Positions 29,514 through 34,654 are shown, counted from the first letter of the stretch. The stretch: DNA of 64,000 nt from an uncultured bacterium (GCA_902778895.1 CACYZF010000006.1:145154-209153), one strand, 5' to 3'. The notes: generated by a model from the sequence alone, not told the origin. Made by a program: numbers and translations.

Positions 29514-31031
29514 ATGACGCCCATTGCCCGCCGCACCTTCTGCATCTTCCTCGCCCTGGCCGCGCTTACCGGCACCTCGATCCTCGCCGACGAGCCGATC
29601 TCCGGCTTCGACTCCACTGAAGTCGTCGAACGGACGCCGGAATCCATTGAAGAAGGCAAAAGGAACGTCGTGTCCGTGGCGCAGCAGCTCCGCGAGATGT
29701 TCCAGCCGATCCGCAAGCAGGCCCGTCAGGTGGAGGAGGAGCCCCCGTACCTGAAGATCATTCCGTCGACGAATGACACGAGCATCCTGATCTACCGCTG
29801 CCGCTATGTGACGGCTTCGAAGCTGCGGAACAGCGTGGACGCGATGATCTCCGACACGGGCTATGTGGAATACGCCGTGGAGGAAAACCTGCTGACGATC
29901 CGCGACGCGGCGGAGAACGTGGAGGCGATCGCGAAGACGCTGCCGCTGATCGACATCGCGACGCCGCAGGTGCTGATCGAGGCGAAGATCGTGGAAGTCC
30001 TGCTCTCCGATAACACCCAGCGCAACCTGTCGTTCATGTTCAACAGCCCGACCACGATCTCCATGATCGACGGCATGAACCAGCGGTATGACGGCGATAC
30101 CATGAGCTACGGCGGCATGCAGACTTCACCTCAGGGCGGCAACACTTCGGACGGTGGTGTGGCCAACTGGACGTTTGCCGCCGGGCACAACAACTTCAAC
30201 ATCGCGCTCCAGTGGCTTCTGACCGCGCTGGACGCCAAGGTCCTGTCCTCGCCCGTGATCGTGGTCGGCCGCAACGAGGAAGCCGAAATCTCCAACGGCC
30301 AGGACGTGCCGATCCAGTCCCAGACCATCACCAACGGCAGCATCAGCACCAGCACCACGTTCAAGCGTGTCGGCGTGACGCTGACCGTGGAGCCGCTCAT
30401 GGTCAACAAGGACAACGTGACGCTCCGCGTCGAGCCGGAAGTCTCCAATATCCAGAGCTACCAGACGATCGCGAACGGCAACGGATTCTACCAGGTGCCC
30501 GTGATCTCCATCCGCAGTATCTCCTCCTATCTCCGCCTCGCCGACGGCCAGATCGTCATCATGGGCGGCCTCTACACCAACCGCAATTCCGTCCAGCAGG
30601 AACGCATCCCGTTCCTGAGCGACATCCCGTACCTCGGCGAGCTCTTCACCTCGAAATACACGGACAAGGAGATCCTTCAGCTGCTCTTCTTCCTCCGCGT
30701 CCGCATCCTGAACCCGAACGACATGGCGGACGGCGTGCTCTTCGATCCGGAAGAAATGATCCGCACGACCAATGAGTTCGGCGAAGTCATGCGCAACTCC
30801 AAGGAACTCCCGACCCTCGAAACGACGATCGAGAAAGTGAATGACGAATTCATCCAGAACCCGCTCGTGTCCTGGAAGACGCTGTTCGGGGACGATGACG
30901 ACGAGAAGGATGATGCCGATAAGGAATCCGCGGAGAACCCGTCCGAAGGCGAAGCCGCGGATTCCAACGCCGAATCCTCCGAATCCGCCGCGCCCGCGGC
31001 GGTCCCCGCAACCTCCCAGCCCGGAGAATAA
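29514..31031 (+). CDS. Secretin-domain outer-membrane channel protein
   Basis: A 505-residue secretin-family protein with a signal peptide (FCIFLALAALTGTSILA) and a short periplasmic N-domain (about residues 80-160). The secretin core runs from about 235 to 405: LTALDAKVLSSPVIVVGRNE, the TFKRVGVTLTVEP strand region, LADGQIVIMGGLYTN, and the signature VQQERIPFLSDIPYLGELFT. A long acidic tail (about 450-505) follows. It is short for a GspD/PilQ and has fewer N-domains. No GspE, GspF, pilin or type III genes are nearby. It is 3 nt upstream of a membrane-fusion protein, followed by ABC exporter genes, so it is probably the outer-membrane exit of that exporter. An RBS-like AAGGA precedes the ATG. 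Confidence 0.92.
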   Translation: MTPIARRTFCIFLALAALTGTSILADEPISGFDSTEVVERTPESIEEGKRNVVSVAQQLREMFQPIRKQARQVEEEPPYLKIIPSTNDTSILIYRCRYVTASKLRNSVDAMISDTGYVEYAVEENLLTIRDAAENVEAIAKTLPLIDIATPQVLIEAKIVEVLLSDNTQRNLSFMFNSPTTISMIDGMNQRYDGDTMSYGGMQTSPQGGNTSDGGVANWTFAAGHNNFNIALQWLLTALDAKVLSSPVIVVGRNEEAEISNGQDVPIQSQTITNGSISTSTTFKRVGVTLTVEPLMVNKDNVTLRVEPEVSNIQSYQTIANGNGFYQVPVISIRSISSYLRLADGQIVIMGGLYTNRNSVQQERIPFLSDIPYLGELFTSKYTDKEILQLLFFLRVRILNPNDMADGVLFDPEEMIRTTNEFGEVMRNSKELPTLETTIEKVNDEFIQNPLVSWKTLFGDDDDEKDDADKESAENPSEGEAADSNAESSESAAPAAVPATSQPGE

Positions 31032-31034
31032 GCC

Positions 31035-32543
31035 ATGAAGAAACCCGCGAAAGTATTCATCTTTGTGCTCCTGCCGGCGCTGCTGCTGGCGGGAGGGCTG
31101 TACTACGGCGTTCGTGTGTATAAGCAGAAGACCGTGTCCGCCGACCGCGCCGTGAGCAAGGACCCCGACCGCACCTACCGCGTCGTGAAGGGCGACATGA
31201 CCCTCGGTCTGCGCCTCAACGGCACGATCGTGGCGAACAAGAAGCACAAGCTCGGCCTCGAGGCCAACTTTGCCACGCAGATCCTGACCGTGGTGGACGA
31301 GAACACCTCCGTGAAGGAAGGCGACATCCTGATCGAGTTCGAGGACAGCGACCTGATCGAACGCATCGAGGAAATGCGCACGACCCTCTCCAATACGGAA
31401 GAAGAGCTCGTGATCGCCATTGAAAACGAGAAGATCCAGGAACGCAAGAACGAGGTCACGCTTCGCGAGGCGGAGGACCGCGTGCGCCAGGCCGAATCCG
31501 ACCAGCGGAAGTATCTGCGCCTCACGCGCACGCAGAAGCGCGACAGCAACGACCTGGCGATCGCGAACGCCGAGGCCAATCTTGCCACTGCGAAGAAGAA
31601 TTACTCCGACAAGAAGTACGACATCGCGCATTCGGGCGTGACGGACGAGGCCGCCCGTAAATCGAACGAAAACGAATTGAAGAATCTCCAGGGCAAGATC
31701 GAATCGAGCGAGAATTCCCTGAACCAGGCGGAGATCGACTCCAAGAGCTTCAAGCACTACGACGATCCGATCAAGCTCATGTCCCTGAACAATTCCCTGG
31801 AGCAGGCCCGTCTCAATCTTGAACAGGCGCGCATCTCCACCTCGTCATCCCTGATCCAGGCGAAGAAGCGCGTCGACAACCTCCGCGCGAACTCGCGCCG
31901 CCAGGCCGCCACGCTCGAACGCTACGAGTCATACCTGCCCATGATGAAGCTCATGGCGCCGACGGACGGCATCGTGATCTACGGCGACCCGGACCGCCGC
32001 TGGGGCGGAGAGGACATCAAGCCGGGCCTTGAGGTCCGCAAAGGCGAAATCCTGCTCACGATCCCGGAAATGACGAACCTGATGGTGAACTTCGACCTGC
32101 CGGAGGCGTTCCGCTCGAAAGTGCAGATCGGCAACCAGGCGATTATCACGCCGGAAGCCATCACCACGCTCAAGATCAAGGGCCAGATCACCGAGATCGC
32201 CACGCTCCCGGTCAACCAGATGTACTGGGACGAGACTTCGCCGAAGATCTATCCCTCGCGCATCGCGCTCGAAGTTCAGGATCCGCAGCTGGTGAACGGC
32301 ATGTCCGTGATCGTCGAGATCGTCTCCAGCATCCTGCACGATGTGATCTCCGTGCCGATGGAAGCAGTCTTCGAGAACGACAAAGGCTTCTTCGTCTTCG
32401 TCAACAAGAACGGCAACCCGGAGGAAGTCCCGGTCACGATCGGCGACTCCAACGATACCGCGGTCTGCATCACCGACGGACTGAAGGACGGCGACGTGGT
32501 GTACCTGTACCGTCCGTACCAGAAAAAGCAGTCCGACCAGTAA
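31035..32543 (+). CDS. MacA/HlyD-type periplasmic membrane-fusion protein
   Basis: A 502-residue adaptor with one N-terminal membrane segment (FVLLPALLLAGGLYYGV) and a lipoyl-like half motif (NTSVKEGDILIEFEDSDL). A long coiled-coil hairpin spans about residues 110-305, with the second lipoyl half at SYLPMMKLMAPTDGIVIYG. Beta-barrel and membrane-proximal domains complete it. The hairpin is longer than in typical MacA, and I could not find the TolC-docking RLS motif with its usual spacing at the tip, only a degenerate RLTRTQKRDSND. This would fit a partner other than TolC. It lies between the secretin and ATPase genes. Confidence 0.92.
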   Translation: MKKPAKVFIFVLLPALLLAGGLYYGVRVYKQKTVSADRAVSKDPDRTYRVVKGDMTLGLRLNGTIVANKKHKLGLEANFATQILTVVDENTSVKEGDILIEFEDSDLIERIEEMRTTLSNTEEELVIAIENEKIQERKNEVTLREAEDRVRQAESDQRKYLRLTRTQKRDSNDLAIANAEANLATAKKNYSDKKYDIAHSGVTDEAARKSNENELKNLQGKIESSENSLNQAEIDSKSFKHYDDPIKLMSLNNSLEQARLNLEQARISTSSSLIQAKKRVDNLRANSRRQAATLERYESYLPMMKLMAPTDGIVIYGDPDRRWGGEDIKPGLEVRKGEILLTIPEMTNLMVNFDLPEAFRSKVQIGNQAIITPEAITTLKIKGQITEIATLPVNQMYWDETSPKIYPSRIALEVQDPQLVNGMSVIVEIVSSILHDVISVPMEAVFENDKGFFVFVNKNGNPEEVPVTIGDSNDTAVCITDGLKDGDVVYLYRPYQKKQSDQ

Positions 32544-32558
32544 TCCCGGCGGGTCCGT

Positions 32559-33371
32559 ATGAACGACGATGTGGTAGTGCAGCTGCGGGACATCCGCAAG
32601 ACGTACAATCCCGGCGGCCTGGCCGTGCATGTGCTGAAGGGGATTTCCTTCTCGATCCAGCGCGGACAGTTCGTCGGTATCGTGGGCACGTCCGGCAGCG
32701 GCAAATCGACGATGCTGAACATCCTCGGCATGCTTGATGTGCCGACGTCCGGCGATTATTTCCTGGAAAAAGTGAACGTGGCGACTCTGTCCGACAGCGC
32801 GCAGGCCACCGTCCGCAACATCCGCATCGGATTCATTTTCCAGAGTTTCAACCTGTTCCCGTACCTGACCATTGAGCAGAATATCGAAGTGCCGATGATC
32901 TACAAGCGCGTCGCGCCGCGCATCCGCCGGGCGCGCGCCCTTGAGCTCGCGAAGGTCGTCGGACTCGGCCACCGCCTCGGGCACCGTCCCACGCAGCTCT
33001 CCGGCGGCGAATGCCAGCGCGTGGCCGTGGCGCGGTCGCTCTGCAACGACCCGGCGTTCCTGCTGGCCGACGAGCCGACCGGCAACCTCGACGAGAAGAC
33101 CGGCAACGAGATCATGGCGCTCTTCCACCGGATCAACAAGGAGCAGAACGTGACGATCATCATGGTCACGCACAACCCGATGTTCGAGCCGCATTACGAC
33201 AAGGTCATTCGGCTCCGCGACGGCCGCATCGTGCAGACGAAGCCGACCGACTCCGTGGACGAGCTGACCGGACCGCTGTCCGGGTTCGGCGAGCTCCCGC
33301 AGGACAAGATGGCCGCCGACGCGAAGGCGACGCTGACGACCACGGCGGAACAGGAGGGCGCGTCCAAATGA
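32559..33371 (+). CDS. MacB-type ABC exporter ATPase
   Basis: A 270-residue ATPase of the MacB/LolD group. Walker A is GTSGSGKSTMLNILG, the Q-loop region is FIFQSFNLFPYLT, the signature is LSGGECQRVAVARSL, Walker B is AFLLADEPTGNLD, and the H-loop is IIMVTHNP. All catalytic residues are present. The last 35 residues are an extra low-complexity tail. In classical MacB the ATPase is fused to the permease; here they are separate genes overlapping by 4 nt. Confidence 0.94.
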   Translation: MNDDVVVQLRDIRKTYNPGGLAVHVLKGISFSIQRGQFVGIVGTSGSGKSTMLNILGMLDVPTSGDYFLEKVNVATLSDSAQATVRNIRIGFIFQSFNLFPYLTIEQNIEVPMIYKRVAPRIRRARALELAKVVGLGHRLGHRPTQLSGGECQRVAVARSLCNDPAFLLADEPTGNLDEKTGNEIMALFHRINKEQNVTIIMVTHNPMFEPHYDKVIRLRDGRIVQTKPTDSVDELTGPLSGFGELPQDKMAADAKATLTTTAEQEGASK

Positions 33372-34654
33372 TGCGGTTCACCGACATCGTGTCGCTGTCC
33401 TTCCTGAACCTGCGGTTGCACAAGACGCGTTCGCTGCTGACCTCGCTCGGCGTGATCTTCGGCGTCGGGAGCGTGATCTCCATGATGGCGATCTCGAAGG
33501 GCGCGGAACGGTCCGCGCTGTCCCAGATCGAATCCATGGGCATCGACAAGATCATCATCTACACCAAGAAGCCGCATTTCGATACGTCCGGGGGCAGTTC
33601 CTCCGGGCGCGGCGCCGCCACCAGCTCCGTGGAGGACTACGGCCTCAACGTCCGCGACTACCAGTTCATCCACACGATGGAGAACGTGCATCACATCACC
33701 ACGATCCGGAACACGCGCCAGCCGATCACGAAGGGCGAGACGCGCCTCGACCTGAAACTCTGCGGCGTTTCCCTCGGATTCATGAAGGACACCTCCTGCC
33801 ACCTCACGTCCGGACGCTGGTTCAACGAGATCGATTTTCGGGAGCCTTCGACCATCTGCGTGATCGGGCAGAACGTGAAGCACAGGCTCTTCCCGCTGGG
33901 CGCGACGGACGTGGTCGGATCGAACATCCGCACCCCGTACGCGTCCTACCGCATTGTCGGCGTGATCTCCAACGATAACGGCACCAGCCTGCCGGAAGTC
34001 GGCAGCCCGAACGACCTGATCCTGATCCCGTCCAACACCGACCTCTCCATCTACGGCAACTACGCGAGCGAGAGCCAGGGGCGGAACCGCAACAAGGCGA
34101 TCCTGGTCGACTACGACGTGATGCTTGTGAATGTGGAAAACCTCGAATACATCGACAATACCTCCAAACGCCTCCAGAACTATCTGGAAAAGGCGCACTC
34201 GAAGAGCAAGGACTGGGACATGATCGTCCCGCTGGACCTGCTCAAACAGCGCGAACGCACCCAGAAGATCTTCACCATCGTCATGGGCGCCATCGCCAGC
34301 ATCTCCCTGCTCGTGGGCGGCATCGGCATCATGAACATCATGCTCGCGAGCGTGTCCGAACGCAAGAAGGAAATCGGCACGCGCCGCGCGCTCGGCGCGC
34401 AGAAGTTCGACATCCTGTTCCAGTTCCTGATCGAGACCGTGATCCTGACCACGCTCGGCGGCTGCGTCGGCATCGGCCTGGGGCTCGGCCTCTCCGAGAT
34501 CGTGAAGCGCTACGCGGAAATGCCGACGGAAGCCTCCATGACGAACATCGTCGGTTCGCTGCTGATCTCGTCGTTCGTGGGCGTGGTCTTCGGCACATAT
34601 CCGGCATGGCGTGCGGCGCAGCAGAACCCGATCGATGTGCTGCGTTCCGAGTAA
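33368..34654 (+). CDS. MacB-type ABC exporter permease
   Basis: The 428-residue permease has a first membrane segment (LLTSLGVIFGVGSVISMMAI), a large periplasmic domain (about residues 50-290), and three C-terminal segments starting at VMGAIASISLLVGGIGIMNI. It carries the family motif SERKKEIGTRRALGA. This is the mechanotransmission (MacB/FtsX) architecture that drives periplasmic substrates outward without moving them through the inner membrane. Start at 33368 or 33371 (adjacent ATGs), coupled to the ATPase stop. Confidence 0.94.
   Translation: MMRFTDIVSLSFLNLRLHKTRSLLTSLGVIFGVGSVISMMAISKGAERSALSQIESMGIDKIIIYTKKPHFDTSGGSSSGRGAATSSVEDYGLNVRDYQFIHTMENVHHITTIRNTRQPITKGETRLDLKLCGVSLGFMKDTSCHLTSGRWFNEIDFREPSTICVIGQNVKHRLFPLGATDVVGSNIRTPYASYRIVGVISNDNGTSLPEVGSPNDLILIPSNTDLSIYGNYASESQGRNRNKAILVDYDVMLVNVENLEYIDNTSKRLQNYLEKAHSKSKDWDMIVPLDLLKQRERTQKIFTIVMGAIASISLLVGGIGIMNIMLASVSERKKEIGTRRALGAQKFDILFQFLIETVILTTLGGCVGIGLGLGLSEIVKRYAEMPTEASMTNIVGSLLISSFVGVVFGTYPAWRAAQQNPIDVLRSE

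Follow-up and report, generated by a model that had tools for sequence, protein, structure and literature searches.

A MacAB-type exporter operon headed by a secretin in the place of TolC in Lentisphaeria and related bacteria

Organization of the operon

The window analyzed here is a 64-kb stretch of DNA (64,000 nucleotides) from a genome of 3.24 Mb in 20 contigs, the nearest named relatives of which are rumen Lentisphaeria and Victivallales MAGs. Four closely packed genes encoding a secretin, a membrane-fusion protein (MFP), an ABC ATPase and a permease lie near its center, and their features are as follows.

29514-34654, + strand: operon of four genes (secretin, MFP, ATPase, permease)
29514..31031, + strand: secretin, 505 aa, first gene (Pfam Secretin 5.4e-40, residues 240-399)
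29637..29702, + strand: N-terminal amphipathic helix of the secretin, residues 42-63, V/L/L/F pattern (structure model)
29751..29951, + strand: single periplasmic N domain, residues 80-146 (model and a weak Pfam Secretin_N match at 93-152)
29967..30710, + strand: secretin beta-barrel core, residues 152-399 (Pfam, PDB profile, model and fold match)
31035..32543, + strand: MFP (periplasmic adaptor) of MacA type, 502 aa, with N-terminal membrane anchor (HlyD_D23 2e-9)
31347..31946, + strand: long alpha-helical hairpin of the MFP, residues 105-304, tip near 199-205 (AlphaFold2 model)
31641..31664, + strand: tip insertion of the MFP, 8 residues, 203-210 (alignment columns against TolC-type adaptors)
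31749-31775, + strand: mid-hairpin kink of the MFP, residues 239-247 (column conservation among secretin-type adaptors)
32559..33371, + strand: ABC ATPase of MacB/LolD type, 270 aa (ABC_tran 3.9e-30)
33368..34654, + strand: permease of MacB type with periplasmic core domain, 428 aa (MacB_PCD 4e-24 and FtsX 1.6e-21)

Our ORF calls match exactly the gene set, outer coordinates and spacings given in an earlier note on this DNA, with gaps of 3 nt between secretin and MFP and 15 nt between MFP and ATPase, and a 4-nt overlap of ATPase and permease. The sequence AAGGA stands 10 nt ahead of the secretin's ATG, and a TTGACA/TATTTT pair about 115 nt upstream of the start is promoter-like by pattern match only. 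The ATPase contains the Walker A motif GTSGSGKST and the signature LSGGE. Its NCBIfam scores for MacB (234 bits) and LolD (228 bits) are both below cut-off, as is the MacB score of the permease (180 bits over positions 253-647). MacB is nonetheless the nearest family for both proteins, and the secretin falls partly on GspD, again below the membership cut-off. A MacB-type permease with a periplasmic core and its cognate ATPase are thus present, split over two genes. Profile searches of the operon and of the 64-kb window detect no OEP/TolC gene, and the secretin stands in that place. The earlier note had also remarked on the lack of secretion-system genes nearby, and the whole-genome search agrees, with a second secretin, a TolC/OEP and a T2SS ATPase all absent from the window. 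No conserved cargo or accessory gene is found in the flanks, where no gene is common to more than 9 loci, and the four genes are therefore the unit.

The secretin

The product of the first gene belongs to the PF00263 superfamily, its Pfam Secretin score being 137 bits against a gathering threshold of 27.5. GspD is its best match both by profile (1e-43 in the PDB search, profile positions 123-411) and by fold (5wq8 at 6e-20), with PilQ, InvG and pIV also among the fold matches, although an NCBIfam GspD score of 165 bits against a cut-off of 351 places it outside the GspD family. The structure model (pLDDT 79) consists of a signal-peptide helix, a helix at residues 42-63, an N domain (80-146) whose strands and helices are mostly above pLDDT 90, the core (152-399) and a disordered tail. 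This single N domain in a protein of 505 aa bears out the description of the secretin as short with few N-domains. Helix 42-63, in which V55, L59, L/M62 and F63 are conserved, occupies the place of N0-N2 in the GspD of the T2SS, and our guess is that it might be an adaptor-docking element.

Conservation and co-inheritance

Relatives were reached by two independent routes, one from the secretin and one from the MFP in a named genome collection. Secretin and MFP are adjacent in 38 of the 40 loci chosen via the secretin, most of which also contain the ATPase and permease, and the two exceptions are a contig end and a real split. Among 74 order-level loci found via the MFP, the secretin is directly upstream in 68, the remaining six being five contig ends and the split genome, G039. 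Across the 137 genomes of the order the MFP occurs in 82, the secretin in 81 and both in 80, leaving two genomes with the MFP only, one with the secretin only and, by subtraction, 54 with neither. In the high-quality genomes of the order each protein is found in 35/61. All three mismatches involve partial matches (an MFP beginning at contig base 2 in G012, a partial MFP in G424 and a partial secretin in G065). Operon absences are scattered over families and genera (f2, f3, f4, f5, f6, f7, f8 and g3), which suggests several joint losses of secretin and MFP. The only clear natural split is that of G039, in which the secretin lies on one contig and the MFP-ATPase-permease trio, without TolC upstream, on another with different neighbors, and yet both have been kept (L073, L269).

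Carriers include Victivallis vadensis DSM 14823 (L144) and the complete chromosome CP071032 (G085, L135), and the gene order is also held in other families and classes of the phylum. The secretin-MFP-MacB synteny, proposed by the earlier note as a check, therefore extends far beyond close relatives, both within the same order and into families of other classes. A scan of the genome collection with peptide patterns of this order gave, beyond the order, just weak adaptor matches and no secretin.

In one gut Lentisphaeria genome of the same family (G016; L276-L280, L156), conserved genes contain in-frame TAG codons and neither TAA nor TGA. The genes concerned are the operon secretin, the MFP, the OEP and 3 of 42 ABC ATPase domains, and relatives have a glutamine opposite one TAG of the secretin. 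A suppressor tRNA search covered five short contigs of this genome. TAG may be reassigned in G016.

A probable single exchange of tolC for a secretin

When the MFP profile was searched across the phylum, 164 of 388 genomes gave a match. In the 39 loci that we examined, the first gene is TolC in 25 and a secretin in 12, with neither seen in 2. The genes that follow are usually MFP, ATPase and permease, in that order, in TolC-led and secretin-led loci alike. Pfam checks on samples of both types confirmed the first gene as OEP or Secretin, respectively, and some genomes contain both operons (L216/L263, L217/L264, L218/L265 and L220/L266). Secretin-type operons form one clade in the trees of the MFP (SH-aLRT 100), permease (99) and ATPase (93), and do so again (99) when the hairpin columns are removed from the MFP alignment. 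The operon secretins likewise form one clade (99), apart from the other secretins sampled in these genomes, and it shows the same division into two major subclades as the trees of the MFP and permease. A single exchange of tolC for a secretin is the simplest reading of these trees, the root of which is carried by a single, long-branched outgroup, the TolC-type operon of the window's own genome.

The adaptor and its tip

The MFP has the inner-membrane anchor, hairpin, lipoyl and barrel domains of a MacA-type adaptor. It matches MacA in the PDB profile search (1e-15), and its best fold match is MacA in MacAB-TolC (9qgy/5nik). In the AlphaFold2 model (mean pLDDT 85) the hairpin at 105-304 is built from two helical arms, each about 95 residues long, very nearly where a long coiled coil (about 110-305) had been noted from the sequence. 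The hairpin spans 207 aa in the window's MFP and 206-209 in secretin-type adaptors, compared to 199 in most TolC-type adaptors. According to the alignment, this difference is accounted for by an 8-residue insertion exactly at the hairpin tip, which is present in 49 secretin-type adaptors and in none of the 21 TolC-type adaptors compared. A hairpin of 265 aa is seen in two secretin-type adaptors from another family (L245 and L246, genomes G222 and G403).

The insertion falls where TolC-type adaptors have an L-x6-S/T motif. Around the tip of the latter, the L column does not vary and Y/F, S/T and E are retained, whereas the tip columns of secretin-type adaptors rank with the most variable positions of the hairpin, and column conservation reveals no positive docking motif there. 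The pattern L-x6-[S/T/N]-x2-[E/D/Q], which was set after inspecting the tips and controlled by shuffles and column conservation, marks the tip of 24 of 26 TolC-type adaptors (shuffles expect 3.1) and of 2 of 51 secretin-type adaptors (shuffles expect 5.0). Its L and S are those of the RLS motif, whose spacing the pattern follows. The paralogous TolC-type adaptor in the window's own genome keeps RAQTLFQSKTMTRSD at its tip, and the tip of the window's MFP is, as the earlier note had observed, devoid of a normally spaced RLS motif. RLS is named as the TolC-docking motif in PMC8277102. As a docking test, however, the strict RLS pattern was rejected since it is matched by only 2/26 TolC-type adaptors (and by 0/51 of the secretin type). 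Loss of the tip motif fits an adaptor that may have been released from TolC. Taken together, these comparisons of sequences establish gene content, gene order, co-inheritance and the loss of the TolC tip motif, and they support a single swap.

At the mid-hairpin kink, F-K-R-Y-D-x-P-x-K is conserved in secretin-type adaptors (F 95%, P 97%) and much more weakly in TolC-type adaptors. Residues 239-247 are perhaps a second partner site.

TolC and type II secretion elsewhere in the genome

The window's genome has one OEP gene, which heads its own complete TolC-MFP-ATPase-permease operon. A third OEP match corresponds to the hairpin of a neighboring MFP and was discarded as an OEP gene. The T2SS has a separate GspD of 880 aa with N0 and N1 domains, adjoining GspE, and the T2SSE matches all lie outside the window, one of them beside another secretin. 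Because TolC has its own operon and GspD sits beside GspE, each of these systems has its own gene partners. The earlier note had named two further findings that would speak against a secretin in the role of TolC, namely a dedicated TolC partner for this MFP and a secretin working for a T2SS or type IV pilus from another part of the genome. Neither emerges from our comparison, which puts the genome's sole TolC in a separate operon, finds secretin-type MFPs without the TolC tip motif, and distinguishes the T2SS secretin from the clade of operon secretins. At least one OEP protein is encoded in 98 of 100 relatives, the exceptions (G027 and G061) both being incomplete genomes. Absence of TolC was therefore rejected as proof of the swap, and a shared TolC is compatible with the gene counts.

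Twelve of the 15 secretin matches in the window's genome are arranged as six pairs of neighboring secretin genes in tandem, all outside the window, at these positions.

C3:50866/52536, C3:146344/147906, C3:214178/217031
C6:1507/3493, C7:5517/6809, C17:16474/18249

The pair at C3:214-217k is similar to pilus secretins of the Amuc_1098 type, although its scores of 330 and 263 bits do not reach the cut-off.

Discussion

The four genes most probably encode a tripartite MacAB-type exporter in which a secretin serves as outer-membrane duct instead of TolC, a reading to which we assign a probability of roughly 0.84. It was put forward in the earlier note, and conserved synteny, separate partners for TolC and the T2SS, and the lost tip motif now argue for it; the support from anatomy and evolution is strong, short of proof. 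In every part except the duct, homology places the operon among MacAB-type exporters. It shares with MacAB-TolC of Escherichia coli (5nik, 9qgy) a MacA-type adaptor and a MacB-type ATPase and periplasmic-core permease in one operon, but differs in its secretin duct, in a much longer adaptor hairpin that lacks the L-S tip motif, and in having ATPase and permease as separate proteins rather than one MacB chain. The TolC-MFP-ATPase-permease operons of the phylum (L221-L244, L263-L266) contain the homologous trio in the same order with a hairpin of about 199 aa, although OEP/TolC comes first, the tip motif is kept and there is no tip insertion. The secretin barrel and the preceding domain align with GspD chains in the PDB, but the operon secretin lacks N0-N2, scores below the family cut-off and is unlinked to T2SS genes. 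Similarly, it shares the secretin core with filamentous-phage pIV and pilus PilQ, yet no phage or pilus genes are linked to it and the genes beside it are those of an ABC exporter.

The MacB-like ATPase and permease would act in the inner membrane, ATP driving cargo from the periplasm by mechanotransmission, as homology suggests. The MacA-like adaptor would form a long coiled-coil funnel, its hairpin tips docking on the secretin's short periplasmic portion (a single N domain and the helix) where those of relatives hold TolC, and cargo would leave through the gated secretin barrel. Such a machine would have a single origin, in the replacement of tolC at the head of a TolC-MFP-ATPase-permease operon. 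Contact between adaptor and secretin, a continuous duct, the direction of transport and the outward flow of cargo by MacB mechanotransmission are what we infer from this arrangement. MacA forms hexamers and most known secretins have 12 to 15 subunits, numbers with which the chain counts in our table of PDB matches agree, so that a 6:12 fit or a symmetry mismatch is to be expected.

An ordinary MacAB pump might instead borrow the genome's TolC, the secretin being merely co-transcribed and serving a T2SS or type IV pilus elsewhere. OEP proteins are encoded in nearly all relatives, T2SS-type ATPases are present in the window's genome, and one TolC serves many pumps in E. coli; that two adaptors could in principle share TolC is the main reason why our confidence goes no higher. 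We consider this arrangement improbable nevertheless, as a GspD dedicated to the T2SS is encoded beside GspE, the operon secretins form their own clade, separate from those of T2SS and pilus-like type, the secretin and the MFP are retained or lost jointly even when split (G039), and the secretin sits in the place of tolC next to an MFP without the TolC tip motif. Only marginally less improbable is a role for the ABC unit and adaptor in acting on the secretin, by assembling it, anchoring it or opening its gate in the way that FtsEX acts on EnvC, with Sec-delivered periplasmic cargo passing through the secretin. MacB-type (type VII) ABC proteins can carry out mechanotransmission without transporting cargo across the inner membrane, the operon has no linked cargo gene, and the remaining gene data are the same as for an exporter. 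The unit descends, however, from tripartite TolC-type operons of the same gene order, for which export is the default function. Finally, the same gene order in about 80 independent genomes from this taxonomic order, including the complete chromosome and the V. vadensis type strain, refutes a local accident or assembly artefact as the origin of this neighborhood.

Our search of the open literature (subscription papers and preprints lay outside it) found no description of a secretin paired with a MacAB-type exporter, in keeping with the earlier note's remark that no described example was known. To our knowledge, every tripartite pump of the ABC, RND or MFS kind uses a member of the TolC/OEP family as its outer-membrane duct, and the systems served by secretins are T2SS, T3SS, pili, Tad and phage. 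Both halves of the operon are hence of known kinds, and it is their combination that is, as far as we know, new.

More tentatively, the operon might represent a separate kind of secretion machine, part tripartite pump and part type II-like, in which a MacB engine, an adaptor funnel and a wide gated secretin pore handle large or folded cargo in several Verrucomicrobiota-Lentisphaerota classes, a proposal that we hold a little less probable than its converse. If it is true, the secretin pore, being wider than TolC, would allow large or folded cargo to pass. The secretin-for-TolC exporter would itself be a natural swap between unrelated duct families, making the adaptor a modular joint and providing a test of what the adaptor tip recognizes, and it predicts that bulkier cargo is exported by the MacB engine. 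The carriers are gut and environmental bacteria, Lentisphaeria and their relatives. The swap can be located on a tree and the operon is present in a cultured type strain, Victivallis vadensis DSM 14823, so that these predictions may be tested directly.
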